Source of the DNA: Novosphingobium sp. ERN07
Lineage (GTDB): Bacteria; Pseudomonadota; Alphaproteobacteria; Sphingomonadales; Sphingomonadaceae
Length of the DNA: 64,000 nucleotides
Assembly: GCF_012641335.1 (NCBI RefSeq)
Contig: NZ_JABAID010000013.1
Location: forward strand, 1-64,000
Direction of reading: 5' to 3'
How positions within the stretch are numbered: the stretch's first letter is position 1; every line of letters begins with the position of its first letter. The notes beneath the pieces are model-generated. The model was not told where the DNA came from and ran no database searches. It saw only the letters and a list, made by a program, of their open reading frames with translations. This document shows, piece after piece, positions 2,827 to 14,815 of the stretch. Position numbers and translations under genes: made by a program.

Positions 2827-3588
2827 ATGAGAATCGTCCTTACCCCGATGCACGGCAGCGCAGAGCCGTTGGAGGTTTGTCGCCACCAGTTCGGGGTCGC
2901 CTCGCTCGATGCGGCGTTGGGGGGTGGGCTGATGCGTGGGCGTATCCATGAAATCTACGCAGCCGAAAGCGATGATCTTGCCAGTGCTGCGGGATTTGCC
3001 TTGGGCATGGCAAAAGGCATGAACGATCCGCAAGGAACGGTTCTGTGGTTGCGAATGCAGCGGGCCGCACGCCTTGGCGGGGTTGTGCAAGCTAATGGCT
3101 GCGCCGAACTCGGCGGTGCACCGGGGCAGATGCTGGTGGGTGTTGTGCCCGACGTCATGGCTTTGTTGCGCGCGGCGGTAGATGCCTTGCGCTGTGCTGC
3201 GCTGGGTGCAGTCGTGGTCGAAGGGTGGGGCGCGATGCGCGAACTGGACCTTACCGCCAGTCGCCGCCTTGCGTTGGCAGCGGAAAAATCGGGCGTGCCC
3301 TTGCTGCTGCTGCGCTATGACGCCGTACCCGTGCCTAGCGCTGCGCAGACCCGCTGGCAGGTGACCTCTGCGCCTTCATTGGCGCTTCCCGGAAACGCGC
3401 CGGGGATACCGACTTTCGATGTGACCTTACTGCGCCAGCGATCCGGCCCTTGCGGCCTTTCCTGGCGGCTGGAGTGGGACCGTGACCGACGCTTGTTCCG
3501 TGAAACGACGCTATCTGGCGCTGTGGTTTCCTTTCCTGCCGACCGAACGACTGCGGATACAGGAGGAAAGGACAGGCAGGCGGCCTGA
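2827..3588 (+). CDS. imuA: ImuA, RecA-like accessory protein of the translesion mutasome
   Basis: 253 residues. ImuA works with ImuB and DnaE2 in damage-induced mutagenesis. The RecA-like core starts at FGVASLDAALGGGLMRGRIH, but where RecA has a Walker A loop this protein reads AAESDDLAS, so nucleotide binding is probably lost, as usual in this family. It is first in a three-gene operon; imuB begins inside its 3' end. No Shine-Dalgarno is visible at the ATG at 2827 because the LexA box lies there, so the mRNA may be leaderless or a later start (ATG 2848) may be used. Confidence 0.88.
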   Translation: MRIVLTPMHGSAEPLEVCRHQFGVASLDAALGGGLMRGRIHEIYAAESDDLASAAGFALGMAKGMNDPQGTVLWLRMQRAARLGGVVQANGCAELGGAPGQMLVGVVPDVMALLRAAVDALRCAALGAVVVEGWGAMRELDLTASRRLALAAEKSGVPLLLLRYDAVPVPSAAQTRWQVTSAPSLALPGNAPGIPTFDVTLLRQRSGPCGLSWRLEWDRDRRLFRETTLSGAVVSFPADRTTADTGGKDRQAA

Positions 3589-5044
3589 CACGCCGCTGGT
3601 CCTCGTTGCCAAGATCAAGGGTGCGCTGCGACTAGGTGCTGTCGATGTCCATGCCCGCGGGCTGGGAATCACGTCCGGCCAAACGCTGGCCGATGCACGC
3701 GCGCTGCATCCCGACCTCACTGTGGCTGATATGAACGAGGACGCGGACCGTCACTGGTTGCAGCGGTTGGCCGAGCACTGCATCGCCTGGTCGCCGCGCG
3801 TGACTGTTGTCCCGCCTGATGGCGTGACGCTGGACATCGCGGGAAGCGAACACTTGTTCGGCGGTGAGGCAGGCCTTCTCGCGCAGGTTGAGGATACTTT
3901 CACGACAATCGGGATGAGCGTGCGCATGGCTACGGCCTCCACTGCGCAAGGCGCTCAGGCGCTGGCCCGTCATTCCCGGCTGCCTGTCATGGACGAACGG
4001 CAGGCCTTGCGGATGCTGCCCGTGGTTGCGCTAGGGCTGGACGAAGAAGCGACGCTTGCTCTGCGCCGTGCGGGTCTGAAGACCATCGGTGATGTTGCGG
4101 CACGTGCCGCAGCCAGCATTGCTGCGCGCTTTGGTGCGGAGGCTGTGACTGCGCTCCGTCGCCTGCTGGGTGAGGAACACGCTCCGATCGACCCGCTGGC
4201 GCAACCCGAACCGCTTCATTTTGAGCGCCGCTTTGCTGAGCCGGTTGCACTTCAGGCCAGCATTGCCGCCTGTTTCCTCGACCTGCTGCGCGAGGCGGCG
4301 CGGACGCTCGAACAACGCGGGCTTGGCGGGCGGCGCTTTGTCCTGACGCTGTTCCGCAGCGATGGGGCGCGCCACCGGCTGGCAATCGAGACAGGTCTGC
4401 CTACGCGCGATCCGGTGCCGGTGCTGCGACTGTTCGACGAACGGATCGCTGCGCTGGCCGATCCGCTAGACCCCGGTTTCGGCTATGATCGCATAACGCT
4501 GTTTCTGCCGGTGACCGAACCGCTCGCCGCCAGCCAGTCCGCGCTTGATGGCGGCGAACAGAGCGCAAGCGTTCTGGCAGACTTGATCGACCGGCTCAGC
4601 ACGCGACTGGGGCCGACCAGCCTGTGCCGTCTCATCCCGCAGGATAGCCACATTCCCGAACAGGCGCAGCTTGCACTCCCTGCCATCCACGCGCGCGAAC
4701 CTGCCCGGTGGCCCGCATCGCCAGCAGGCGAACCACCGTTGCGGCCGCTGTTCCTGTTCGATCCGCCGCAACCCGTGGAAGTTATCGCACAAGTGCCCGA
4801 TGGGCCACCGCACCGTTTCCGCTGGAAGCGAAAACTGCACGAGGTGCGGCTTTACGAAGGACCTGAACGGATCGCCTCCGAGTGGTGGCGACGCAAGGGC
4901 GGCGAAGCCACCGGTAAGGGTGGGCTGACACGCGATTACTACCGGGTCGAGGATGTGCGCGGTCGACGCTACTGGATATTTCGCCACGGGCTCTATGATG
5001 AAAAGCCCGATCCGAACTGGTATCTGCACGGGCTGTTTGCATGA
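3500..5044 (+). CDS. imuB: ImuB, Y-family polymerase-like mutasome hub
   Basis: 514 residues from the GTG at 3500 (VKRRYLALWFPFLPTERL); a GTG at 3482 would add six codons. ImuB resembles Y-family polymerases but is inactive as a polymerase in studied relatives. Here the N-terminal strand lacks the usual catalytic Asp (LWFPFL rather than a DCD-type motif). It bridges ImuA, DnaE2 and the beta clamp; QLALPAI near residue 400 is a weak candidate clamp motif. The C-terminus has the conserved RDYYRVED and RYWIFRHGLY segments. It overlaps imuA by 89 bp and its stop overlaps the dnaE2 start (ATGA), indicating translational coupling. Confidence 0.9.
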   Translation: MKRRYLALWFPFLPTERLRIQEERTGRRPDTPLVLVAKIKGALRLGAVDVHARGLGITSGQTLADARALHPDLTVADMNEDADRHWLQRLAEHCIAWSPRVTVVPPDGVTLDIAGSEHLFGGEAGLLAQVEDTFTTIGMSVRMATASTAQGAQALARHSRLPVMDERQALRMLPVVALGLDEEATLALRRAGLKTIGDVAARAAASIAARFGAEAVTALRRLLGEEHAPIDPLAQPEPLHFERRFAEPVALQASIAACFLDLLREAARTLEQRGLGGRRFVLTLFRSDGARHRLAIETGLPTRDPVPVLRLFDERIAALADPLDPGFGYDRITLFLPVTEPLAASQSALDGGEQSASVLADLIDRLSTRLGPTSLCRLIPQDSHIPEQAQLALPAIHAREPARWPASPAGEPPLRPLFLFDPPQPVEVIAQVPDGPPHRFRWKRKLHEVRLYEGPERIASEWWRRKGGEATGKGGLTRDYYRVEDVRGRRYWIFRHGLYDEKPDPNWYLHGLFA

Positions 5045-8000
5045 CCGGTCCTTCTTCTTTTGCCGAACAGCCTCCTTTTGCCGAACTGGTCGCGGCCACC
5101 AACTACAGCTTTCTGCGGGGTGCCTCGCATCCGGCGCAGATGGTGGCGCGGGCGCATCATCTGGGGATGGCGGGGATCGGCATTGCAGATCGCAACACCG
5201 TGGCGGGGGTGGTGCGTGCGCATGTCGGCTGGCGCGAAGTGGGTGGTATTGCGGGCGGCTTTCGCCTTGCCGTGGGTACGCGGCTGGTCTTTGCCGACGG
5301 TACGCCAGACGTGGTCGCCTACCCCGCCACGCGTCATGGCTGGGGACGGCTGACGCGGTTGCTGACGCTGGGCAATCGTCGCGCTGAAAAGGGCGGTTGC
5401 ACACTGCACCTGCCGGATCTGCTGGATCATGCCGATGACCTGCTGCTGATCGCCACTGGGCGCGATCGGGCAGTCCTGGAGCGATTGACCGAGGCGCGCC
5501 GCGGCGCGGTATGGCTGGCCGCGATCATGAAACGTAGCGGCAGCGATGCGCGACGCTTGGCGCAAGCACAAGCTCTGGGTTCGGCCTGCGGCGTACCGCT
5601 GCTTGCCACCTGCGATGCGCTCTACGACCATCCCGATGCGCGCCCCTTGCACGATGTGCTTACCTGTATCCGTGAGGGCGTGACCATAATGGAGGCTGGG
5701 CGCCGACTACTCGCCAATGCCGAGCGCCACCTCAAACCGCCCGCTGAAATGGTGCGCTTGTTCCGTGCCTGCCCGGAAGCTGTCACGGCGACGACCGAGT
5801 TCCTTTCGCGCATCGATTTCTCACTTGACGACCTGCACTACGAATATCCGCATGAACCGGTGCCTGAAGGCTGGCAGCCGCAGGCATGGCTCGAACATCT
5901 GGTTCAGCAAGGCGGGCGGGCGCTATTCCCCGATGGCCTGGCTGAAAGCTACCGGGCCGTGCTGAGGCAGGAGTTCGACCTGATCCGGCAGAAGAACTAC
6001 GCTTCCTATTTCTTGACTGTGCATGACATCGTGCACCATGCCCGCAGCCTCGATCCACCAATCCTTTGCCAAGGGCGAGGCAGCGCCGCCAATTCGCTGG
6101 TCTGCTATTTCCTCGGCATCACACCCATTGATCCGGTGCGCGAAAAGCTGCTGTTCTCGCGCTTCCTGTCCGAAGAACGCGATGAGCCGCCCGATATCGA
6201 CGTGGACTTCGAGCATGAGCGCCGTGAGGAGATCATGCAGTACATCTACGCTCGTTATGGCCGCGAACGTGCGGGCATTGCCGCTACGGTGATCCACTAT
6301 CGCCCGCGCAGCGCGCTTCGCGAAGTGGGCAAGGTGCTGGGCCTGACCGAAGACGTGACCGCGCGGCTCGCCTCCACGATCTGGGGGAACTGGGGCGATG
6401 ACGTGCCTGAAGCACGTGTAAAGGAAGCCGGGTTTGACATCGCCAACCCGCAGATCGCGCGACTTAAGGCGCTGGTCGATCAAGTGCTGACCTTCCCGCG
6501 CCATCTTTCGCAGCACGTTGGCGGTTTTGTGCTGACCGAAACCCGGCTCGACGAACTGGTGCCGATCCACAATGCGGCCATGCCTGACCGCACCTTTATC
6601 GAGTGGGACAAGAACGACATCGACGCGTTGGGGCTGATGAAGGTGGACGTTCTGGCGCTGGGTATGCTGACGTGCATCCGCAAAAGCTTTGATCTGATGC
6701 GCCAGCATGGCCTGCCTGACCTGTCGCTGGCCTCTGTCCCGCGCGAGGACAACGCCACCTATGAGATGCTGCAAAAGGGCGATAGCATTGGCACGTTTCA
6801 GGTGGAAAGCCGCGCGCAGATCGCAATGCTACCGAGGATGAAGCCGAAAGAACTGTACGATCTGGTCATTCAGGTAGCGATCGTCCGGCCCGGTCCCATT
6901 CAGGGTGGCATGGTCCATCCTTATCTGCGGCGGCGCAACGGTGAAGAGGCCGCGCTCTTCCCAAGTCCCGCACCTCCACACGATCCGAACGAACTGCGAG
7001 AGGTTCTGGGAAAGACGCTGGGCGTACCGCTGTTTCAGGAACAGGCGATGAAGCTGGCTATCGTGGCGGCCAATTTCACCCCACCACAGGCTGACGGCCT
7101 GCGCCGCGCGATGGCTACGTTTCGCAACCACGGAACGGTACACAATTACGAGGATCTGCTGATCGATGGCATGGTGGCGCGCGGTTATGAGCGCGATTTT
7201 GCCGAACGCTGCTATCAACAAATCAAGGGCTTTGGTGAGTACGGCTTTCCTGAAAGCCATGCACAGGCCTTCGCATGGCTGGCCTATGTCTCGTCATGGC
7301 TTAAGCGCCACCACCCGGCTGCATTCACCTGCGCGCTGCTCAACAGCCAGCCGATGGGCTTTTATGCACCTGCGCAATTGGTCCGTGATGCGCAGGAGCA
7401 TGGGGTCGAAGTGCGTGCTGTGGATGTGAATTCCAGCCATTGGGACTGTACGCTGGAAAGGGCCGAAAACCACGCGCTTGCGCTGCGGCTGGGTTTTTCC
7501 CGTATCGATGGTATCCGCAAAGATTGGGCCGATGCCATCGTTGAAGCTCGACTACACGGTACTTTCGTTTCGGTTGAGGATATCGCCCGGCGCGCCGCTT
7601 TGCCGCCACAGGCCTTGCGCAGACTGGCCGATGCCGATGCCTTCGGATCATGTGCACAATCTCGCCGCGATGCCCTGTGGGAGGTACGCCGCACGCCGCC
7701 CACCCAGTTGGCGCTCTTTGCCTTTGCCGATGCTCCCGAACTTGGTCAGGAACCTGCTGCGCACCTGCCTCCTATGCCCCTGACCGATGAGGTCATAACC
7801 GATTATCAGACAGCACGCCTCTCGCTGAAAGGGCACCCGATGCAGTTCCTGCGGGCGAGGCTGACGTCTGAGGGCGTGCTATCCTGCGCAGATGCCAATG
7901 TGTTGCCCGATGGCCGCAAAGCAAGCGTCGCCGGTGTCGTCCTTACCCGGCAGCGTCCCGGCAAAGGCAATGCCGTGTTTATCACGATTGAGGACGAAAC

Positions 8001-8295
8001 CGGCGTGGTCAACGCGCTGCTATGGTCCCGCGATCTCGACAAGCAACGCCGTGCCGTCATGGCCGCGCGCCTGATGTTGATCCAAGGCGAAATTCAGAAA
8101 AGCAAGGAAGGTGTGGTCCACCTGATGGTCAAGCGCGTGATCGACCGCACGGCGATGCTCGACCACCTCACCGATCAACAACCCTTGGCACAGCAAACCT
8201 CGCGTGGTGACGAAATCCACCATCCCCAGCGTCCCCGCCAGCATGGCCATCCCCGCGACGTCAGAATCCTGCCAAGATCGCGGGATTTCCATTGA
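5041..8295 (+). CDS. dnaE2: Error-prone DNA polymerase III alpha subunit DnaE2
   Basis: 1084 residues, about the family length. It is the C-family polymerase that synthesises across lesions under SOS control. It begins with the PHP domain (FAELVAATNYSFLRGASHP), followed by the palm with CQGRGSAANSLVCYFLGI and the acidic PPDIDVDFEHERREE segment, then HhH and OB-fold regions (VAGVVLTRQRPGKGNAVFI) near the C-terminus. It starts in a 4-bp overlap with imuB. The end at 8295 is 54 bp from the convergent CopC-like gene with no clear terminator between them. Confidence 0.95.
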   Translation: MTGPSSFAEQPPFAELVAATNYSFLRGASHPAQMVARAHHLGMAGIGIADRNTVAGVVRAHVGWREVGGIAGGFRLAVGTRLVFADGTPDVVAYPATRHGWGRLTRLLTLGNRRAEKGGCTLHLPDLLDHADDLLLIATGRDRAVLERLTEARRGAVWLAAIMKRSGSDARRLAQAQALGSACGVPLLATCDALYDHPDARPLHDVLTCIREGVTIMEAGRRLLANAERHLKPPAEMVRLFRACPEAVTATTEFLSRIDFSLDDLHYEYPHEPVPEGWQPQAWLEHLVQQGGRALFPDGLAESYRAVLRQEFDLIRQKNYASYFLTVHDIVHHARSLDPPILCQGRGSAANSLVCYFLGITPIDPVREKLLFSRFLSEERDEPPDIDVDFEHERREEIMQYIYARYGRERAGIAATVIHYRPRSALREVGKVLGLTEDVTARLASTIWGNWGDDVPEARVKEAGFDIANPQIARLKALVDQVLTFPRHLSQHVGGFVLTETRLDELVPIHNAAMPDRTFIEWDKNDIDALGLMKVDVLALGMLTCIRKSFDLMRQHGLPDLSLASVPREDNATYEMLQKGDSIGTFQVESRAQIAMLPRMKPKELYDLVIQVAIVRPGPIQGGMVHPYLRRRNGEEAALFPSPAPPHDPNELREVLGKTLGVPLFQEQAMKLAIVAANFTPPQADGLRRAMATFRNHGTVHNYEDLLIDGMVARGYERDFAERCYQQIKGFGEYGFPESHAQAFAWLAYVSSWLKRHHPAAFTCALLNSQPMGFYAPAQLVRDAQEHGVEVRAVDVNSSHWDCTLERAENHALALRLGFSRIDGIRKDWADAIVEARLHGTFVSVEDIARRAALPPQALRRLADADAFGSCAQSRRDALWEVRRTPPTQLALFAFADAPELGQEPAAHLPPMPLTDEVITDYQTARLSLKGHPMQFLRARLTSEGVLSCADANVLPDGRKASVAGVVLTRQRPGKGNAVFITIEDETGVVNALLWSRDLDKQRRAVMAARLMLIQGEIQKSKEGVVHLMVKRVIDRTAMLDHLTDQQPLAQQTSRGDEIHHPQRPRQHGHPRDVRILPRSRDFH

Positions 8296-8348: not shown

Positions 8349-8861
8349 TCATCCGCACAGTGGGTGCACCTTTGCAGTCTCAGGATTTCCGCATCCAACG
8401 CTGCCGTTTACGTCCTCAACCTGCGCCAGACCGACGGAATTGCCGACATCTTTGGTATCATGCTCTGCTTCGGGAACTTCAAACTCGATGAAGCCGTTGA
8501 GCGATTTGAAGGACTTTGACGTCAGGAGGTAGGAAATCTTGTATTGGCCTGCTGCTGATACCGACGTGGGAAGCCTGAAGTTGAAGGTTTTTCCCTTCGA
8601 CACCGCCGCGTCGATATCGTTATCCGAAGGATAGACGCTTATCTCGCTGTCATCGGGCAGGTAGAGCGTGACGCTTATCAGCTTGGCGGGTTCGGCAAAG
8701 TTCAGCCCGATTGCGCTGATGCCGTTGCGTTGCGCCGAATCTGCTGCGGGCGACGACGATACGAGCATGTCCTGCGCGGCAATCGGGGCTGCTTGCGCCG
8801 ATACGCTAAGCGCCATTGCGCCAAGGCTGGCGAATATCGACAGGTGGTTCGCGAATTGCAT
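8349..8861 (-). CDS. Exported CopC-fold protein lacking the copper-ligand histidines
   Basis: 170 residues from the ATG at 8861 (MQFANHL; RBS CGGAG). A signal peptide ends near SAQA. The mature part follows the CopC/YobA pattern: a DMLVSSSPAADS start, the LNFAEPAKL strand, and an ISYLLTSKSFKSLNGFIEFE end. In CopC a His precedes LVSS and another lies in the S.DGHPV.G loop; here they are Asp-Met and Phe-Lys, so copper binding is unlikely. A C-terminal tail has two Cys (GCGNPETAKVHPLCG). A terminator-like hairpin lies 15 bp upstream, so expression may be separate from, or attenuated after, the Cys-rich genes. Periplasmic; role unknown. Confidence 0.7.
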   Translation of the reverse strand: MQFANHLSIFASLGAMALSVSAQAAPIAAQDMLVSSSPAADSAQRNGISAIGLNFAEPAKLISVTLYLPDDSEISVYPSDNDIDAAVSKGKTFNFRLPTSVSAAGQYKISYLLTSKSFKSLNGFIEFEVPEAEHDTKDVGNSVGLAQVEDVNGSVGCGNPETAKVHPLCG

Positions 8862-8875
8862 CGCCGGAAACTCCG

Positions 8876-8916
8876 AAAAAGGCGGGTGTGCGATGTCGAG
8901 GGACACGCACACCCGC
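8876..8916 (-). terminator. Intrinsic-terminator-like hairpin between the Cys-rich genes and the CopC-like gene
   Basis: Read on the minus strand, an 11-bp perfect stem (GCGGGTGTGCG/CGCACACCCGC, 8882-8892 with 8906-8916) is followed by C and five T residues (8880-8876). A second near-perfect stem (GGCTTCCCCAA with TTGGGGGAAGCC, 8923-8933/8951-8962) lies just before it. The terminator ends 14 bp before the CopC-like start codon, so it either ends the upstream operon or acts as a leader attenuator. Confidence 0.7.
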
Positions 8917-8976
8917 AGTCATGGCTTCCCCAAGGGTCGGTCGCAGTGAGTTGGGGGAAGCCAAATCTCGCAATGA

Positions 8977-9780
8977 TCAGCAGCCGGATTTCTTCTTTTT
9001 GCCAAAGCCGCCGAGCATCCCACCAATCACGACTCCCGCCTGACCACCAATCGCACCGCCGATGGCGGCTCCGCTGGCATCGGGTTGGCATGGAGTCTGC
9101 GCCGCAGGTGTGCTTGCGGCGGCTGAAGCGCTGGATGGCGATGCAGATTTTGCGCTTCCCGCTGGGAAAAGCGCGAGAATGCCGGGGGTGTTTTCATACT
9201 CGGCCCCCTGCGGCGAGGTCTTGCCGCCGGACAGCGCAAACAGATTGTTCACGTCAGCCACTGCGGTGTTCTCGGCCTCGGAGCGGGTCAGCTTGTGCAG
9301 GCGCGATGTGCAGTAGATGCCCCATTCATCGACTTCTTCCCCGCTGCATGCCGCGCCACGCTTGAGCCGCGATGCAGGGGCCTTGCCCTGATAGGGCGTG
9401 GAGCAGATATTGAGATTGCCCTCATCGGTCCAGTACCCCACCGGGCAGCGATCAAGCTGGTTGGCCTTGGTGATCGACCCGTATGTCGGCGGAACATAGG
9501 TGGCCGATACCTTGCTGGTGCAATAGCCGAACTCGCTTTGATAACCGGCGGCGCAGGCACCGTTCTTGACATAGACCGAAGGTGCGCCCGATCCGGGATA
9601 GCACATGTTCGGATTGGGCTTGCTGTTCTGCGCGGTCGAGCCTTGGGTGTAGCCCGATGGGCAGGTGCCGCCCACGCGGGTGATCGGGCCGGTCGAGCCT
9701 TGCGCATGTGCGGGTACTGTCAAACTGGTGAATCCCGCCAATGCCAGCGCCGTTGCGGCAGCGAATGAAACAGTACGCAT
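8977..9780 (-). CDS. Exported protein with two four-cysteine modules and a glycine-rich tail
   Basis: 267 residues; I recognise no known family. The signal peptide ends at PAHAQ (27). Two modules follow: Cys40-60-76-87 and Cys112-126-145-157, each starting CP.GY and ending GYCTSK or IYCTSR. The second has the same Cys spacing as the single module of the next protein (9822-10118). Residues 205-230 are Ser/Ala/Pro-rich and 238-260 form a glycine-zipper-like stretch (AIGGAIGGQAGVVIGG) before a KKKK tail and final Cys, which could insert in or pack against a membrane. It probably shares a transcript with 9822-10118 (41-bp gap). The cysteines suggest periplasmic disulfides. Confidence 0.75.
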   Translation of the reverse strand: MRTVSFAAATALALAGFTSLTVPAHAQGSTGPITRVGGTCPSGYTQGSTAQNSKPNPNMCYPGSGAPSVYVKNGACAAGYQSEFGYCTSKVSATYVPPTYGSITKANQLDRCPVGYWTDEGNLNICSTPYQGKAPASRLKRGAACSGEEVDEWGIYCTSRLHKLTRSEAENTAVADVNNLFALSGGKTSPQGAEYENTPGILALFPAGSAKSASPSSASAAASTPAAQTPCQPDASGAAIGGAIGGQAGVVIGGMLGGFGKKKKSGC

Positions 9781-9821
9781 GAAACTGCTCCTGCTTGTTC
9801 GATGACTTCAGAGAGGGAAGA

Positions 9822-10118
9822 TCAGGGACGCTTGGTCGAACACCAGACGCGGTAGACCTCGTAGTATCCGGCGGCGCAGCTTTCGCTTTCGGCCTTGCCA
9901 TAGATCTTGGGCGAACTGCTGACCTGCGGTGCGCAGATGCTGGTGTCGCCATCAGGGTGGCTCCATCCCGATGGGCAGGCGACAGAGCGCTTCGGCTTCA
10001 CCACCGGTCCCTGATTGGTGCCCTGCGCCGATGCGGGAGCCGAAAGGCTCGACAGCACAACAGCGGACAGCAGGCTGAGGTGCAGGCCACCAAGGCCGAT
10101 GGCCAGGCGCATTTTCAT
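9822..10118 (-). CDS. Small exported protein with one four-cysteine module
   Basis: 98 residues: a signal peptide to about residue 32 (SAPASAQ), then one module with Cys48, Cys62, Cys81 and Cys93 (ACPSGW, SIC, SCAAGY, WCST). The spacing 14-19-12 equals that of module 2 in the neighbouring 267-residue protein, so the two are paralogous. It is first of a minus-strand unit, diverging from the sensor-kinase gene across a 223-bp region that contains palindromic operator candidates. Function unknown; a sensed ligand-binding or envelope protein is possible. Confidence 0.72.
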   Translation of the reverse strand: MKMRLAIGLGGLHLSLLSAVVLSSLSAPASAQGTNQGPVVKPKRSVACPSGWSHPDGDTSICAPQVSSSPKIYGKAESESCAAGYYEVYRVWCSTKRP

Positions 10119-10221
10119 GACGATATCTCCTCGCGATGGCGGGCCGACCGGCAGGTAGGCTTTGCCTGATGAGGGGCTTGCTAGCGGGGCGGGGGAGGGT
10201 CGCCCATGCCATCAGACATGG

Positions 10222-10238
10222 TGCCATATCGTGGCATG
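10222..10238. promoter_or_regulatory. Palindromic operator candidate, copy 1 (before the sensor kinase)
   Basis: TGCCATATCGTGGCATG contains TGCCA and TGGCA half-sites around a 5-bp centre. The same 17-bp word, differing at one base, lies before the response-regulator gene at 12249. It sits in the divergent region between the exported-protein genes and the kinase. Another ATGCCAT half-site is at 10206-10212. Likely bound by the adjacent LuxR-type regulator (inference). Confidence 0.6.
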
Positions 10239-10262
10239 TCGCGGGCGGCAGTGGCTGAATTC

Positions 10263-10279
10263 TGCCATTTCGACGCATC
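10263..10279. promoter_or_regulatory. Degenerate copy of the palindromic operator
   Basis: TGCCATTTCGACGCATC keeps the left half TGCCATNTCG and part of the right half (GCAT) of the motif at 10222 and 12249. It begins 41 bp after copy 1 starts, about four helical turns, on the same face. It ends 63 bp before the kinase start. Confidence 0.4.
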
Positions 10280-10341
10280 CTTGCGGTTGCATCGCGGAAC
10301 TGCGTGGCTACGATGGGTCAGGGAAAGGGTCGGGGGAAGCA

Positions 10342-12228
10342 GTGGCCGTGCAAGTGAACTGGCGCCAGTTGGGCAGGCTGGTGGTGATGATCTGTCTGGT
10401 ACAGGCCGTCTATTGGCTGCTTGTCGAAAAGCCGCTGTTCCGGGTGAACGTCAGTGAGGCTCCGCCATCGGCAGAGCAGGTCAGAACACAGATCGCCCGG
10501 CTTTCTGCACCGACCCTTGGCAATGTTGCGGATGCGGACTTCAGGGATGTCGAACTGCCGTGGACGCACTGCTGCGATACCGCGATGTTTGCTGTTCGGA
10601 TCACATTCCGGCTTGATGACGTGCCGTCGGCCGGGCTTGGCCTGATTTCGCACCTGCAGGTTGATAACTACCGCCTTTATGTGAACGACAGCCTGCTTTT
10701 TGGCGAAGGCCGCATGGGGCCGGGCAACGGCACATTCCACGGTCAGAAGACCTTCCTGACTCGAATACCGGCAGGACTGGTGAAGCGCGGCGACAATGTG
10801 CTGACCTACATCACCGTTCGCGATGGCTTTCCCTATACCGATATTTTCCCGCCCCAGATTGGCGAGTTCGAGGCGATGCGCAGCTTTTCCGCGCGCAGGC
10901 TGTGGGCGCTGAACGACTTTCCGCGTTATAGCGCCGGGTTGCTGGGGCTGTTGGGCCTTCTGGCCACGGTCATGGTCTTCCGGTCTGATGACTGGCGCTT
11001 TGCCGCATGGTTGAGCGCGCTGTGCGGGGCGTTCGTGGCGAACTATCTTTACGGTGTAGAACTGGCTCCGCCCTTTGATGGATGGGGACGGATGCTGGCG
11101 TTCTTTGCGATCAACATGTTCATACCCACGGCGCTTCTCTGCTTCATTGATACCTGGACCCGCAGGCCCCTGCGGTGGCTGATGCCGCTTGTACTGGGCA
11201 TTTATCTGGCCGCAGTCGGGTATATCGCATGGCGCATCTATGCCACCCCGATGCCCGATGCGTTTGATGTTCCGGCAATCGTGTGGATATGGATGCTGGC
11301 CGGCTTGAGCATCGCCACGCTGGTCCGGTTGTTGTGGCATTTTGCCCGTGCACCAGAAGACCGTATGGTCGAAAGCGCGTTGATGTCGGTTCTGGCGGTG
11401 GCAACGCTGCTTGATGCCTTGTGCAACTGGTTTCCCGAATGGGAATTGCGCGAAGGCTATCTGATAAACGCCGCGCCTTTCCTGATGCTCGCGATGCTTA
11501 CCGCGTTTCTGGCCCGGAATTTCCGGTTGTTCCAATCGCAAGCCGCGCTCACCACCCTGTTGCAGGCCAAGGTCGAACAGCGCGAAGCCGAACTTGCCGT
11601 TGCCCATGCGCGCGAGCAGGAGTTCGTGCGGCAACAGGCCCATGATGTCGAGCGTCGCCGCATCATGCAGGACATTCATGACGGGCTGGGCAGTCAACTC
11701 ATGTCGATGATGCTGTCGGCGCGGTTGGGGGAAGCCGAACCGGCACAAGTTGCCGAAGGGCTGCAAGCGGTGATCGACGAGATGCGGCTGATGGTCGATT
11801 CGATGGACTCCGTAGGTGAATCGCTGGAAGCCGCGCTTGCCACGTTCCGTGCGCGGATGCAGCCGCGCGTGGCCGCGGCGGGGCTGCAGCTTGACTGGCT
11901 TCAGGCAGAGAGCCTTGCTTTGCCTGATTATGGCCCGCGCGAAGTCCTGCAGTTATTCCGTATCCTGCAGGAAGCGGTGACCAATGCGTTGAAGCATTCG
12001 GGGGCAGATCGCCTTGCGGTGGAGATCGGGCCAGAGGGCGATGGCGCCGTGGCTATTCGCGTATCCGACAACGGAAAGGGCAGCGCCAAGTCAGGTGTTG
12101 GCAGGGGCCTGACCAATATGGCGCGGCGTGCCGAAGCTATTGGCGCACGCTTTGCGCTTTCGTCCGAGCCGGGGGCGGGCACGCAGGTTTGCCTGCATTT
12201 GCGGCGTGATGCGGTGGCCACGGCCTAA
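10342..12228 (+). CDS. 7TM sensor histidine kinase (NarX/LiaS-type core)
   Basis: 628 residues from the GTG at 10342, which has a CGGGGGAAG ribosome site. After an N-terminal membrane segment comes a beta-rich extracytoplasmic domain (LQVDNYRLYVNDSLLFGEG is jelly-roll-like), then about seven membrane helices (roughly residues 195-400, as in 7TMR-DISM receptors), a coiled segment, and a HisKA_3 dimerisation helix with phospho-acceptor His446 (MQDIHDGLGSQL). The ATPase has N-box EAVTNALKHS and G-box SDNGKG. The partner is the response regulator 70 bp downstream. The periplasmic domain may sense a carbohydrate or one of the exported proteins encoded divergently; that is inference. Confidence 0.87.
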   Translation: MAVQVNWRQLGRLVVMICLVQAVYWLLVEKPLFRVNVSEAPPSAEQVRTQIARLSAPTLGNVADADFRDVELPWTHCCDTAMFAVRITFRLDDVPSAGLGLISHLQVDNYRLYVNDSLLFGEGRMGPGNGTFHGQKTFLTRIPAGLVKRGDNVLTYITVRDGFPYTDIFPPQIGEFEAMRSFSARRLWALNDFPRYSAGLLGLLGLLATVMVFRSDDWRFAAWLSALCGAFVANYLYGVELAPPFDGWGRMLAFFAINMFIPTALLCFIDTWTRRPLRWLMPLVLGIYLAAVGYIAWRIYATPMPDAFDVPAIVWIWMLAGLSIATLVRLLWHFARAPEDRMVESALMSVLAVATLLDALCNWFPEWELREGYLINAAPFLMLAMLTAFLARNFRLFQSQAALTTLLQAKVEQREAELAVAHAREQEFVRQQAHDVERRRIMQDIHDGLGSQLMSMMLSARLGEAEPAQVAEGLQAVIDEMRLMVDSMDSVGESLEAALATFRARMQPRVAAAGLQLDWLQAESLALPDYGPREVLQLFRILQEAVTNALKHSGADRLAVEIGPEGDGAVAIRVSDNGKGSAKSGVGRGLTNMARRAEAIGARFALSSEPGAGTQVCLHLRRDAVATA

Positions 12229-12248
12229 ACGTTCTTGTGCGCGGGTCA

Positions 12249-12265
12249 TGCCATGTCGTGGCATG
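12249..12265. promoter_or_regulatory. Palindromic operator candidate, copy 2 (before the response regulator)
   Basis: TGCCATGTCGTGGCATG extends to a CATGCCA-N5-TGGCATG palindrome. It matches copy 1 at 16 of 17 bases. It lies in the 70-bp gap between the kinase and regulator genes, 33 bp before the regulator ATG, consistent with autoregulation from an internal promoter. Confidence 0.6.
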
Positions 12266-12298
12266 GTGGCGGTTTCGTTGCCGTGGTAGTTCAAGGTC

Positions 12299-12958
12299 AT
12301 GTCAGAACCGTCCGAACGCAAAACTGTCCGCATTGCCATCATCGAGGATGATCCGATGGTGCGGAAGTATTTCATGCGCATCCTTTCGGCTGAAGAGGGC
12401 TTCGATGTGGTGGGCGTCGCGCCCGACATCGCTACCGGCAAGGCATTGATCGCGCTTTGCCCGGACCTGTTCCTGATGGACATCGGTCTGCCCGATGGCA
12501 GCGGCTATGATCTGGTGCCCGATATCAAGGCGCGCTCTTCGGCCAAGGCTCTGATCATCAGCGCCTTTGGCGATCGCGACACGGTGGTGCGTGCGCTTTC
12601 TGCGGGTGCGGACGGCTATCTTCTGAAAGACAGCACGCCTGCACAGGTGTTGGATGGCATCGCCATCACGCTCGATGGCGGCGCGCCGGTCAGTCCGGCG
12701 GCGGCGGTCTATCTGCTCGATCTGCTGCGCAATCCTGCTGCCTCGCCCGCCATCGAAACCCCACCACACGATACGGGGCTGACGCCGCGCGAAATGGACC
12801 TGCTCAGGGCGTTCGCTGCGGGCCGAAGCTACAAGGAAGCCGCGCGCGATCTTGCAATATCGCCGCATACGGTCGGGAACCACGTGAAGTCGATCTACCG
12901 CAAGCTGGAAGTCCAATCTCGCAGCGATGCGCTACGGGCGGCGGGATTGCGGCGGTAG
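12299..12958 (+). CDS. LuxR/NarL-family response regulator
   Basis: 219 residues. The receiver domain has the acidic pair in IIEDDPM (16-18), phospho-acceptor Asp61 (LFLMDIGLPDGSG) and the conserved Lys in GYLLKD. The C-terminal LuxR-type helix-turn-helix starts LTPREMDLLRAFAAG and contains SPHTVGNHVKSIYRKL. It pairs with the upstream kinase and probably binds the shared palindrome upstream of both genes. The 3' end overlaps the convergent acyltransferase gene by 27 bp. Target genes beyond the locus cannot be seen. Confidence 0.92.
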   Translation: MSEPSERKTVRIAIIEDDPMVRKYFMRILSAEEGFDVVGVAPDIATGKALIALCPDLFLMDIGLPDGSGYDLVPDIKARSSAKALIISAFGDRDTVVRALSAGADGYLLKDSTPAQVLDGIAITLDGGAPVSPAAAVYLLDLLRNPAASPAIETPPHDTGLTPREMDLLRAFAAGRSYKEAARDLAISPHTVGNHVKSIYRKLEVQSRSDALRAAGLRR

Positions 12959-14815
12959 CCCAGCCGCGATCACCGCCCTTGCGCCGCTCAGGCTGAGGTG
13001 GTGAGCATCGAAATAGGCCGGGCGGCCCGCGACGATAAGGCGCGATCGGCTGCCATCGCGCAGGGCATCCAGCGGATCGATCACGGTCACGCCCCGTTGC
13101 ACCCAGCGGCGGTAGTGGGCGGTGAGCCATATGGTCTGCGCATGGTATTGCGCCATGCTGGCACCTTCCGCCTTGTCCACTCCGCCACGCGCGGCGGCAT
13201 GGGCCAGATGGCGGGGAACATCGAAGGTTTGCGGCGGGACCGGGCCGATCAGCACCACCTGCTTTCCTCCTGCCTGAAGGCGCGCAATCGTCTGGTCGAT
13301 CAAGGCCGCCATGCCCGGCTGGTTATACGCCGGGCTGGCCCAGAAAGCGACGAGATAGACTTGGCGGATCTGCGGGGAGGCCAGCAGATGCTGCAATGTG
13401 CTGGCGTTGCTTTGCGCGCAGCCGGGATCGATCGCGACGGTATAGCCGATGACGGGAGGGCAACTCGCGCGGGTGCGCTGCGTGATCGAACTGCCGGTTT
13501 GACCCAGACGTTCACCCAGCGCCCATGCCAGTTCGACACCGTGGCTGTCGCCCCACAACATCGCTGTGGCACGAACTGGCGCGCCCAGTGTGCAGGCCGC
13601 GCTCTCGCCGCCCGCGCTGTCGATGATACAGGCCCCGCGTTTGGGGCTGACGTCGTGCACCGCGTCGGCCATCTGCGTGACTTGCGCCGGGAAGCGCGCA
13701 GGCCATCCGCCAAGCGGCAGCATGGCAAGTGCCACCGCGTTGATAGCCCCCATGCCGCCTGCACTCAGGATGAAAACCCGCCGCCGATCAAAGCGCTGCG
13801 CATTGCGGAAGGGCCGTTCGATAATGCGCCAGCTTGCCCAGGCCAACGCAAAGCTGGCTGCGATGACCGTAATTTGCCGGATGCCGCCAAGCGGCGCGTC
13901 GGCGGTATATTCCGCAAAAACGATCAGCGGCCAGTGCCACAGATAGAGCGAGTAGGAAATCAAACCCACGCCCACCATCGCCGGCAATGATAGAATGCGC
14001 CCCATCAGCGTGCCGGGCGCAAAGCGGATAAGCAGGACCGCACCCAGAACGGGAGCCAGCGCCGCAACGCCCGGAAACACGGTGCTCCGATCATAACTCG
14101 CCACCGACCACACGATCAGCCCCAAACCCGACAGCGCCAGAATCTGGGCCTGTGGACGACTGTCCGCCTTCGCCGGAGCCGAGAGCGCAAGCAGAGACCC
14201 GGCCATCAGTTCCCACGCGCGGGCGGGCAGCAGATAGAATGCAAAGCCATCGGTATCGGCCTGTTTCCACACCGCCAGTGTAAAGCTGACCAGCGCAAGC
14301 AGGACGACGATCATCACGCGCTGGCGCGGTGCCGCCTTGGCGCATATCCATAGCACCGCCGGGAAAACGACGTAGAACTGCTCTTCCACTGCCAGCGACC
14401 AACAATGCAGCAGCGGCATGGAATCTGCGGGACCGCCGAAATAGCCCGTCTGGGTGAAGAACCAGACGTTGGCGAGAAAGCCTAGCGTCATCAGTGCTGA
14501 TCGCGGCACGCCAGCAAAGTCGGCTGGCAGATAGAACCATGCAGCCAAGACAAGGACGATTGCGATCATTACCAGCAAGGCTGGCAGGATGCGCCGGGCA
14601 CGGCGCTCGTAAAACTGCAAAATCGAGAATTGCCCGGCGTCGATCTCGCGCGCGATGATCCCCGTGATCAGAAAACCCGATATCACGAAGAAGATATCCA
14701 CGCCAACGAAGCCGCCAGAAAAGCCGGGAAGCTTGGCATGAAAGGCAAGCACAGGCAGGATTGCCAGTGCGCGTAGTCCGTCAATGTCCCGGCGATAGGC
14801 GGCTGATGCAGTCAT
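12932..14815 (-). CDS. OafA-type membrane O-acyltransferase with C-terminal SGNH domain
   Basis: 627 residues. The N-terminal half (MTASAAYRRDIDGLRALAIL) is an acyltransferase-3 domain with about ten membrane helices; motif VVLFHA-like VLAFHAKLPG and the FFVISGFLI segment are present. The C-terminal periplasmic half is an SGNH hydrolase-like domain with the block I motif LWGDSHG and the late FDAHHLSLSGA (Asp-x-x-His). Such fusions acetylate cell-surface polysaccharide or lipopolysaccharide in the inner membrane. Acceptor unknown. It stands alone, convergent with the response regulator. Confidence 0.88.
   Translation of the reverse strand: MTASAAYRRDIDGLRALAILPVLAFHAKLPGFSGGFVGVDIFFVISGFLITGIIAREIDAGQFSILQFYERRARRILPALLVMIAIVLVLAAWFYLPADFAGVPRSALMTLGFLANVWFFTQTGYFGGPADSMPLLHCWSLAVEEQFYVVFPAVLWICAKAAPRQRVMIVVLLALVSFTLAVWKQADTDGFAFYLLPARAWELMAGSLLALSAPAKADSRPQAQILALSGLGLIVWSVASYDRSTVFPGVAALAPVLGAVLLIRFAPGTLMGRILSLPAMVGVGLISYSLYLWHWPLIVFAEYTADAPLGGIRQITVIAASFALAWASWRIIERPFRNAQRFDRRRVFILSAGGMGAINAVALAMLPLGGWPARFPAQVTQMADAVHDVSPKRGACIIDSAGGESAACTLGAPVRATAMLWGDSHGVELAWALGERLGQTGSSITQRTRASCPPVIGYTVAIDPGCAQSNASTLQHLLASPQIRQVYLVAFWASPAYNQPGMAALIDQTIARLQAGGKQVVLIGPVPPQTFDVPRHLAHAAARGGVDKAEGASMAQYHAQTIWLTAHYRRWVQRGVTVIDPLDALRDGSRSRLIVAGRPAYFDAHHLSLSGARAVIAAGLPPQSRRP

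Follow-up and report, generated by a model that had tools for sequence, protein, structure and literature searches.

We analyzed a stretch of 64,000 nucleotides from Novosphingobium sp. ERN07 (contig NZ_JABAID010000013.1, positions 1 to 64,000; hereafter the window), which carries a compact locus that probably constitutes a two-component regulon. Five genes compose it: three minus-strand genes for exported proteins and, diverging from them, a plus-strand pair encoding a seven-transmembrane (7TM) histidine kinase and a NarL/LuxR-type response regulator (Table 1). The exported proteins are a CopC-like protein (COPC) and two cysteine-module proteins, CYS267 and CYS98, and all three open reading frames (ORFs) begin with signal-peptide-like N-termini, as judged by eye and without a predictor. 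This arrangement, proposed in a first-pass annotation of the same DNA, was confirmed by ORF and Pfam checks, with the HisKA_3, HATPase_c, receiver and GerE domains of the two adjacent regulatory genes all scoring above the Pfam cut-offs. Its designation as an export locus holds for the products, which are exported, but no exporter gene is seen in the locus. The two palindromic 17-mers that had been reported are present at 10222 and 12249, while the degenerate copy claimed at 10263 is not among the matches of the window search or of the motif search; the conserved element is instead a third half-site. The palindrome at 10222 lies about 112 bp from the CYS98 start and likewise about 112 bp from the kinase start.

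Table 1. Genes and predicted promoter elements of the locus (window coordinates), with hairpin examples from other loci (coordinates of the respective locus).
Feature	Position	Strand	Basis
COPC, CopC-like exported protein, 170 aa	8349..8861	-	Pfam CopC 34.8 bits, cut-off 23.3
CYS267, exported, 267 aa, two four-Cys modules, tail with glycine zipper-like stretch, lysine run and C-terminal Cys	8977..9780	-	17 aligned relatives; model
CYS98, exported, 98 aa, one four-Cys module	9822..10118	-	relatives in named genomes
-10-like TA, CYS98 promoter, exactly 23 bp from third half-site	10182..10183	-	14/14 loci
Third half-site, minus-strand GATGGCA, 8 bp off palindrome	10207..10213	-	conserved layout
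Predicted operator palindrome TGCCATATCGTGGCA, CYS98/kinase gap	10222..10236		motif matches
7TM histidine kinase, GTG start, HisKA_3 + HATPase_c	10342..12228	+	Pfam, model, alignment
Predicted operator palindrome TGCCATGTCGTGGCA, centre 43 bp before regulator start	12249..12263		motif matches
-10-like TA, regulator promoter, 23 bp from proximal half-site	12287..12288	+	layout comparison
NarL/LuxR-type response regulator	12299..12958	+	Pfam Response_reg + GerE
CYS98 leader hairpin, examples	L033 8757-8800; L029 10964-11007; L065 9936-9979; L074 4373-4416

The window locus exemplifies a locus that recurs in Sphingomonadales in several forms; its fuller copies add a DUF4424 protein (profile match of 284.5 bits in L033), an LprI-like protein and further CopC-like proteins. 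A scan of named genomes with a CYS98 alignment yielded ten loci, distributed over Sphingomonas (n = 2), Novosphingobium (n = 1), Porphyrobacter (n = 1), Blastomonas (n = 2), Erythrobacter (n = 2) and assembled genomes (n = 2). Conservation of the neighbourhood, on which the first-pass annotation had staked its proposal, was borne out, as a kinase-regulator pair lies alongside nine of these ten loci; the tenth (L072) is situated at a contig edge, with its first gene at base 228. The commonest order is regulator, kinase and then, divergently, the LprI-like, DUF4424, CYS98, CYS267 and CopC-like genes, with individual members variably present. For instance, DUF4424 was not found anywhere in the window genome and an LprI-like gene is absent from the window locus. 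The LprI-like assignment consists of profile matches alone (25 bits in L056, with a cut-off of 22, and 21.4 bits, just below it, in L030).

Kinase and Cys genes also occur together at the level of whole genomes. Among 149 same-genus genomes, close kinases (at least 68% identity) are present in G000, G217 and G226, and CYS98 (E <= 1e-49) is present in the identical three; a weaker CYS98 match in G203 corresponds to a Cys-CopC operon without an adjoining kinase. Across the order, 11 of 396 genomes contain the Cys family and eight a close kinase (here at least 60% identity, plus the G001 chimera), all eight being among those 11. The naive hypergeometric value of 1e-14 for this co-occurrence overstates the case because the genomes are related. 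The three remaining Cys-bearing genomes comprise one with a pair of a second subtype, termed B-type below (G554), one with a lone Cys gene (G520) and one with a lone operon (G203). The Cys genes without a linked kinase or A-type operator are located at L136 6254-7591 (G203) and L168 9982-10677 (G520), and a DUF4424 gene lies elsewhere in G203 (L137). CYS98 gave no match in plasmid records.

The gene set is accompanied by a rigid promoter layout. Each of the 14 A-type CYS98 genes checked is preceded by the palindrome. Read on the CYS98 strand, it is followed by 8 bp (TGCC type) or 9 bp (TCCC type) and then by a third half-site, mostly CATGGSA. Exactly 23 bp past this half-site, a TA is found in 14 out of 14 loci, while at the other offsets from 10 to 39 a TA occurs at most once each. 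If this TA is taken as positions -12/-11, the half-site spans -42 to -36. The passages of PMC7419079 on the Escherichia coli ogt promoter place NarL sites at centres -44.5 and -77.5; the proximity to this activation position would make activation the likelier sense of regulation, by analogy with NarL. In the regulator promoter, the proximal half-site stands 23 bp from a TA in seven of 13 loci (the window, L056, L057, L067, L070, L073 and L169). By eye, the outer half-site is 13 bp away instead of 1 in the regulator promoters of L057, L067, L070 and L073, which accounts for their weak matrix scores. The composite word CCAYGAYATGGSA-N8,9-SRTGGSA occurs in one copy each in eight of the 396 genomes (reversed control: 0), and these eight are the genomes with both a close kinase and CYS98. 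The composite word derives from these very loci, so what is informative is that the other 388 genomes, including the three Cys-only ones, lack it.

In TCCC-type leaders, the CYS98 transcript has at its predicted 5' end a hairpin in which the ribosome-binding site is paired, with some pair-keeping changes. Eight of these leaders were folded (L117 not among them), with z values of -2.0 to -5.7. Neither the window (z -0.44) nor L069 (z -0.27) gives a significant hairpin, and it is therefore left out of the mechanism proposed below.

The window taken alone is weak evidence for a functional palindrome. Up to three mismatches, it contains three matches versus 0.48 expected, but one of the three is the 12249 site read in reverse, and three matches are reached in 3 out of 100 shuffles. 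In the 4.69-Mb draft genome, a search with up to two mismatches returned the 10222 and 12249 sites plus one two-mismatch site within a coding sequence on contig 27. It is the comparison with other genome sequences that lifts the palindrome above chance. With at most one mismatch, the consensus palindrome TSCCATATCATGGSA, derived from the compared loci, has 32 sites in 14 genomes versus 3 for the reversed control. All 14 exact copies are situated at members of the gene set (in front of CYS98, the kinase, the regulator or a YadA-like gene), as are seven of the 18 one-mismatch copies. The placement of exact copies is thus non-random, contrary to one outcome that the first-pass annotation had allowed for.

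Since many of the searched loci had defined the motif, sites outside this sample matter. In G226, the kinase pair and a CYS98-DUF4424 operon lie on separate contigs with an exact site at each, and the CYS98 site was discovered through the motif only. In G095, a site lies 99 bp in front of a second CYS-CopC-DUF4424 operon that is unlinked to the first, and G303, G552 and G592, likewise outside the motif definition, carry sites at the expected places. A leave-one-locus-out matrix scores the CYS98-upstream site at 23-31 in 12 out of 12 A-type loci, with rank 1 or 2 per locus, and at -6.9 and 2.4 in two B-type loci; this is a mild test because related loci have identical sites.

Two subtypes of the kinase-regulator pair are associated with the exported families. 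Next to the A type of the window, L030, L031 and L068 carry a different subtype (B type), in which the regulator precedes the kinase, beside the same exported families. The A word is absent from these loci, and palindromes like ATCCCGTGATCGCGGGAT are found upstream of the regulator instead. In L030 and L031, ATCCCGTGATCGCGGGAT-like copies carrying three differences also precede the Cys genes, at about 76 bp from centre to start, and L068 has one B-type site in the shared gap. The kinase of Sphingomonas ursincola (L033/L071) is a natural chimera: its sensor half is of B type (62-66% identity to B) and its kinase half of A type (74-75% to the nearest A types). Beside this chimeric kinase, the regulator (85%) and the operators are of A type. 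With the sensor swapped and the A-type output kept, the sensors look exchangeable while the output is constant, as far as these sequences indicate. A kinase tree of 33 rows is distorted by this chimera and by the long-branched L064, and only the broad 15-row group holding the Cys-linked kinases was used from it. At L170 (G592; 8895-13376), the kinase gene is in two pieces around two ORFs of 508 and 246 aa, which we take to resemble insertion-sequence genes of the IstA/IstB kind; CYS98 and the exact operator are retained.

The AlphaFold2 model of the window kinase comprises an N-terminal helix, a beta domain, seven helices (176-393) and a kinase core. In this prediction, the 7TM part aligns with GPCR-like folds over about 200 residues (Z 15-16.5) and the core with DesK and VraS (Z 17). 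HisKA_3 and HATPase_c are both matched in 20 out of 20 aligned kinases, and the 7TMR-DISM_7TM and 7TMR-DISMED profiles gave no match among the families listed for these 20 at E <= 0.5. The periplasmic jelly-roll domain of the first-pass annotation is retained as a predicted beta domain, but the fold name stays unconfirmed, as kinase and 7TM hits took up the fold searches, which barely probed the periplasmic domain (residues 34-175).

CYS98 is homologous to module 1 of CYS267. In the 17 aligned CYS267 relatives, module 2 contains four cysteines and module 1 likewise four, or two in 4/17. The relatives also share an invariant final cysteine and a glycine-zipper-like stretch, and a lysine run is usual. 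In the CYS267 model, which has a mean predicted local distance difference test score of 68.5, there are two small beta modules, and the tail is disordered. CYS267 has no Pfam match and CYS98 no Pfam family above cut-off; weak, tail-only matches to Gly-zipper_Omp occur in six of the 17 CYS267 relatives, and an NCBIfam match of 14 bits for CYS267 also falls on the tail. Fold searches with CYS267 yielded no PDB match, with nothing in Foldseek at E <= 0.001 and no Z >= 2 in VIA-align (110 chains), which does not by itself make the fold novel.

Links to surface proteins come from sister kinase-regulator loci. An autotransporter (PF03797) is found near 10 of 18 sister kinase loci, often directly after the regulator, as a raw count without a background rate. 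One further locus has a PKD-repeat protein without PF03797, and none was seen at the other seven, one of which is at a contig end. Sister pairs beside autotransporters, many with PKD repeats, are those of L035, L036, L037, L040, L043, L044, L059, L060, L061 and L063. The sister pairs may make up a broader family of two-component systems linked to adhesins. In Novosphingobium sp. B1, a YadA head-repeat protein (41.9 bits) is encoded beside the set, and its gene has the palindrome, the third half-site and a TA at 23. YadA_head has no match in the window genome, so the link to trimeric adhesins comes only from Novosphingobium sp. B1. Since sister loci adjoin autotransporters and the YadA-like gene of B1 has the promoter layout, we favour, with low confidence, a surface or envelope role for the exported set; from their profile matches, LprI-like members would fit wall protection. 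In both Blastomonas loci (L068 10724-15864 and L074 8105-13245), a 1064-aa protein and a protein that by eye is TonB-receptor-like are encoded near the Cys genes.

With a probability of roughly 75%, we read the locus as a two-component regulon in which the kinase and the NarL-type regulator would control the exported proteins. The comparison of loci establishes, at the sequence level, a conserved gene set and a conserved operator-to-TA layout; from these we infer that the regulator binds the operator, that it activates rather than represses, and that a signal is sensed. In the proposed mechanism, the 7TM kinase would sense a signal outside the inner membrane and phosphorylate the NarL-type regulator. 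The latter would bind heptamer pairs (TSCCATR ... CATGGSA), with the promoter-proximal heptamer at about -42 to -36, and activate its own gene as well as the operon of CYS98, CYS267 and the CopC-like protein (plus DUF4424 and LprI-like genes in fuller copies). Control of its own gene and of the exported genes had been suggested in the first-pass annotation, and the position of the palindromes across genomes lends support to it. At a guess, the exported proteins would most probably function jointly, at the surface or in the envelope of the cell.

Several observations weigh against this reading. Of the one-mismatch copies of the palindrome, 11 out of 18 lie elsewhere than at genes of the set, and lone Cys genes without a close kinase exist in G203 and G520. 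At the regulator promoter, the spacing is 27 bp rather than 23 in five loci (L029, L033, L065, L069 and L074), and no half-site was found at L170. In the second operon of G095, the third half-site is degenerate and a TA at 23 bp is missing. That the 10222 palindrome controls the kinase gene is so far unsupported, as in six inspected loci the side of the shared gap that faces the kinase has no TA 23 bp from a half-site. The B-type locus L167 lacks a B copy within three mismatches, although by eye the palindrome arms are mostly kept around another spacer, and neither palindrome was found at L032 (G107), which has a more distant kinase, a regulator and a nearby Cys gene. Finally, the link to surface structures is indirect and comes without a background rate.

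The copies away from the set would also be expected if the palindrome were another regulator's site, or a nucleic-acid structure, with the linked pair not binding it; the RNA hairpin in some CYS98 leaders points in the same direction. We nevertheless deem this unlikely, since the word differs between regulator subtypes A and B, goes with the regulator even where the sensor half has been exchanged, and stands at the distance from the -10-like TA where NarL-type activators work according to the promoter descriptions in PMC7419079. Site position alone does not give the sign of regulation, and the regulator might mainly repress, in which case production of the exported proteins would coincide with a silent kinase or with phosphatase activity of the kinase. 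There is little probability in this, as a half-site at about -42 to -36 combined with a fixed 23 bp would correspond to a NarL-activated layout; no -35 element was seen either, though none was looked for.

A different role for the exported proteins, raised in the first-pass annotation and compatible with the two-component regulon, is that they bind, present or protect a ligand for the periplasmic domain of the kinase and thereby form a sensing loop. Tight genetic linkage and apparent co-regulation would suit such a loop, as would the same exported set being kept in the S. ursincola sensor swap; targets on a contig without the kinase (G226) and second operons (G095) fit outputs better than accessories of the sensor, and we consider the loop improbable. 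A copper-handling locus might be expected from the CopC match of COPC (34.8 bits) and from the PDB CopC structures matched by the profile of the CopC-like family. However, the sections of PMC12362106 on ligands give an N-terminal His and a DxH motif as the Cu(II) ligand rule for CopC, and by eye both are gone from 15 out of 15 aligned CopC-like proteins. Moreover, the window protein reaches 21.8 bits with the NCBIfam model copper_CopC (NF033814), for which the curated cut-off is 95. A copper function was rejected for these CopC-like proteins without Cu(II) ligands, and a copper-handling locus is very improbable. Chance neighbours with a chance palindrome would agree with the 3 out of 100 shuffles that reach the window's three matches, yet this is hardly credible in view of the conserved gene sets, positions and spacing and of the reversed controls (3 vs 32 and 0 vs 8).

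The two-component regulon favoured here resembles the NarX/NarQ-NarL system of E. coli in combining a HisKA_3-type kinase with a NarL-type regulator, and the NarL regulon in its inverted heptamers, also single ones, next to the -35 region, as portrayed in the regulatory sections of PMC7419079. In contrast to the 7-2-7 operator of NarL given in those sections, the operator here is 7-1-7 (1 bp spacer) and the heptamer sequences differ; the 7TM sensor and the exported-protein targets are further differences from NarX/NarQ-NarL. According to its model, the kinase shares a periplasmic domain, seven helices and a signalling module with the 7TMR-DISM kinases RetS and LadS, as these are outlined in parts of PMC6107284, but unlike them the 20 kinases here lack a 7TMR-DISM profile match at E <= 0.5. 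The CopC-like proteins contain a CopC domain by Pfam and PDB profile matches, as copper proteins of this family do. Without Cu(II) ligands, they come nearest to the [C0-0] class without Cu sites in the classification of PMC12362106. The sister loci have the same kinase and regulator families, mostly in the order kinase and then regulator. Unlike the window locus, they have no adjoining Cys genes found by blastp. No paper on this locus was found in open-licence PubMed Central searches. Its right side adjoins an acyltransferase with an SGNH domain, and the ORFs directly to its left (window 3482-8295) are, we presume, ImuB-like and DnaE2-like, of the mutagenic repair kind.

The four-Cys module, the copper-less CopC, DUF4424 and the LprI-like proteins are unstudied exported families, which are here tied into one gene set with a predicted on-switch. 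The promoter grammar of palindrome, 8-9 bp, half-site, 23 bp and TA has enough specificity for members to be recognized by DNA sequence only, and the sensor swap of S. ursincola could help to tell what each of the two sensor types detects. Tentatively, the four-Cys proteins with their Cys-ended, lysine-rich glycine-zipper tail, the copper-less CopC-like proteins and DUF4424 may be parts of an undescribed Sphingomonadales envelope or surface complex, deployed by exchangeable 7TM sensors via one rigid promoter grammar. The part of a 2013 report (PMC3848476) that deals with DUF4424 describes the family without a clearly recurrent gene context, which differs from its recurrence in the fuller locus copies; if the complex is real, it would give DUF4424 a recurrent genetic context.

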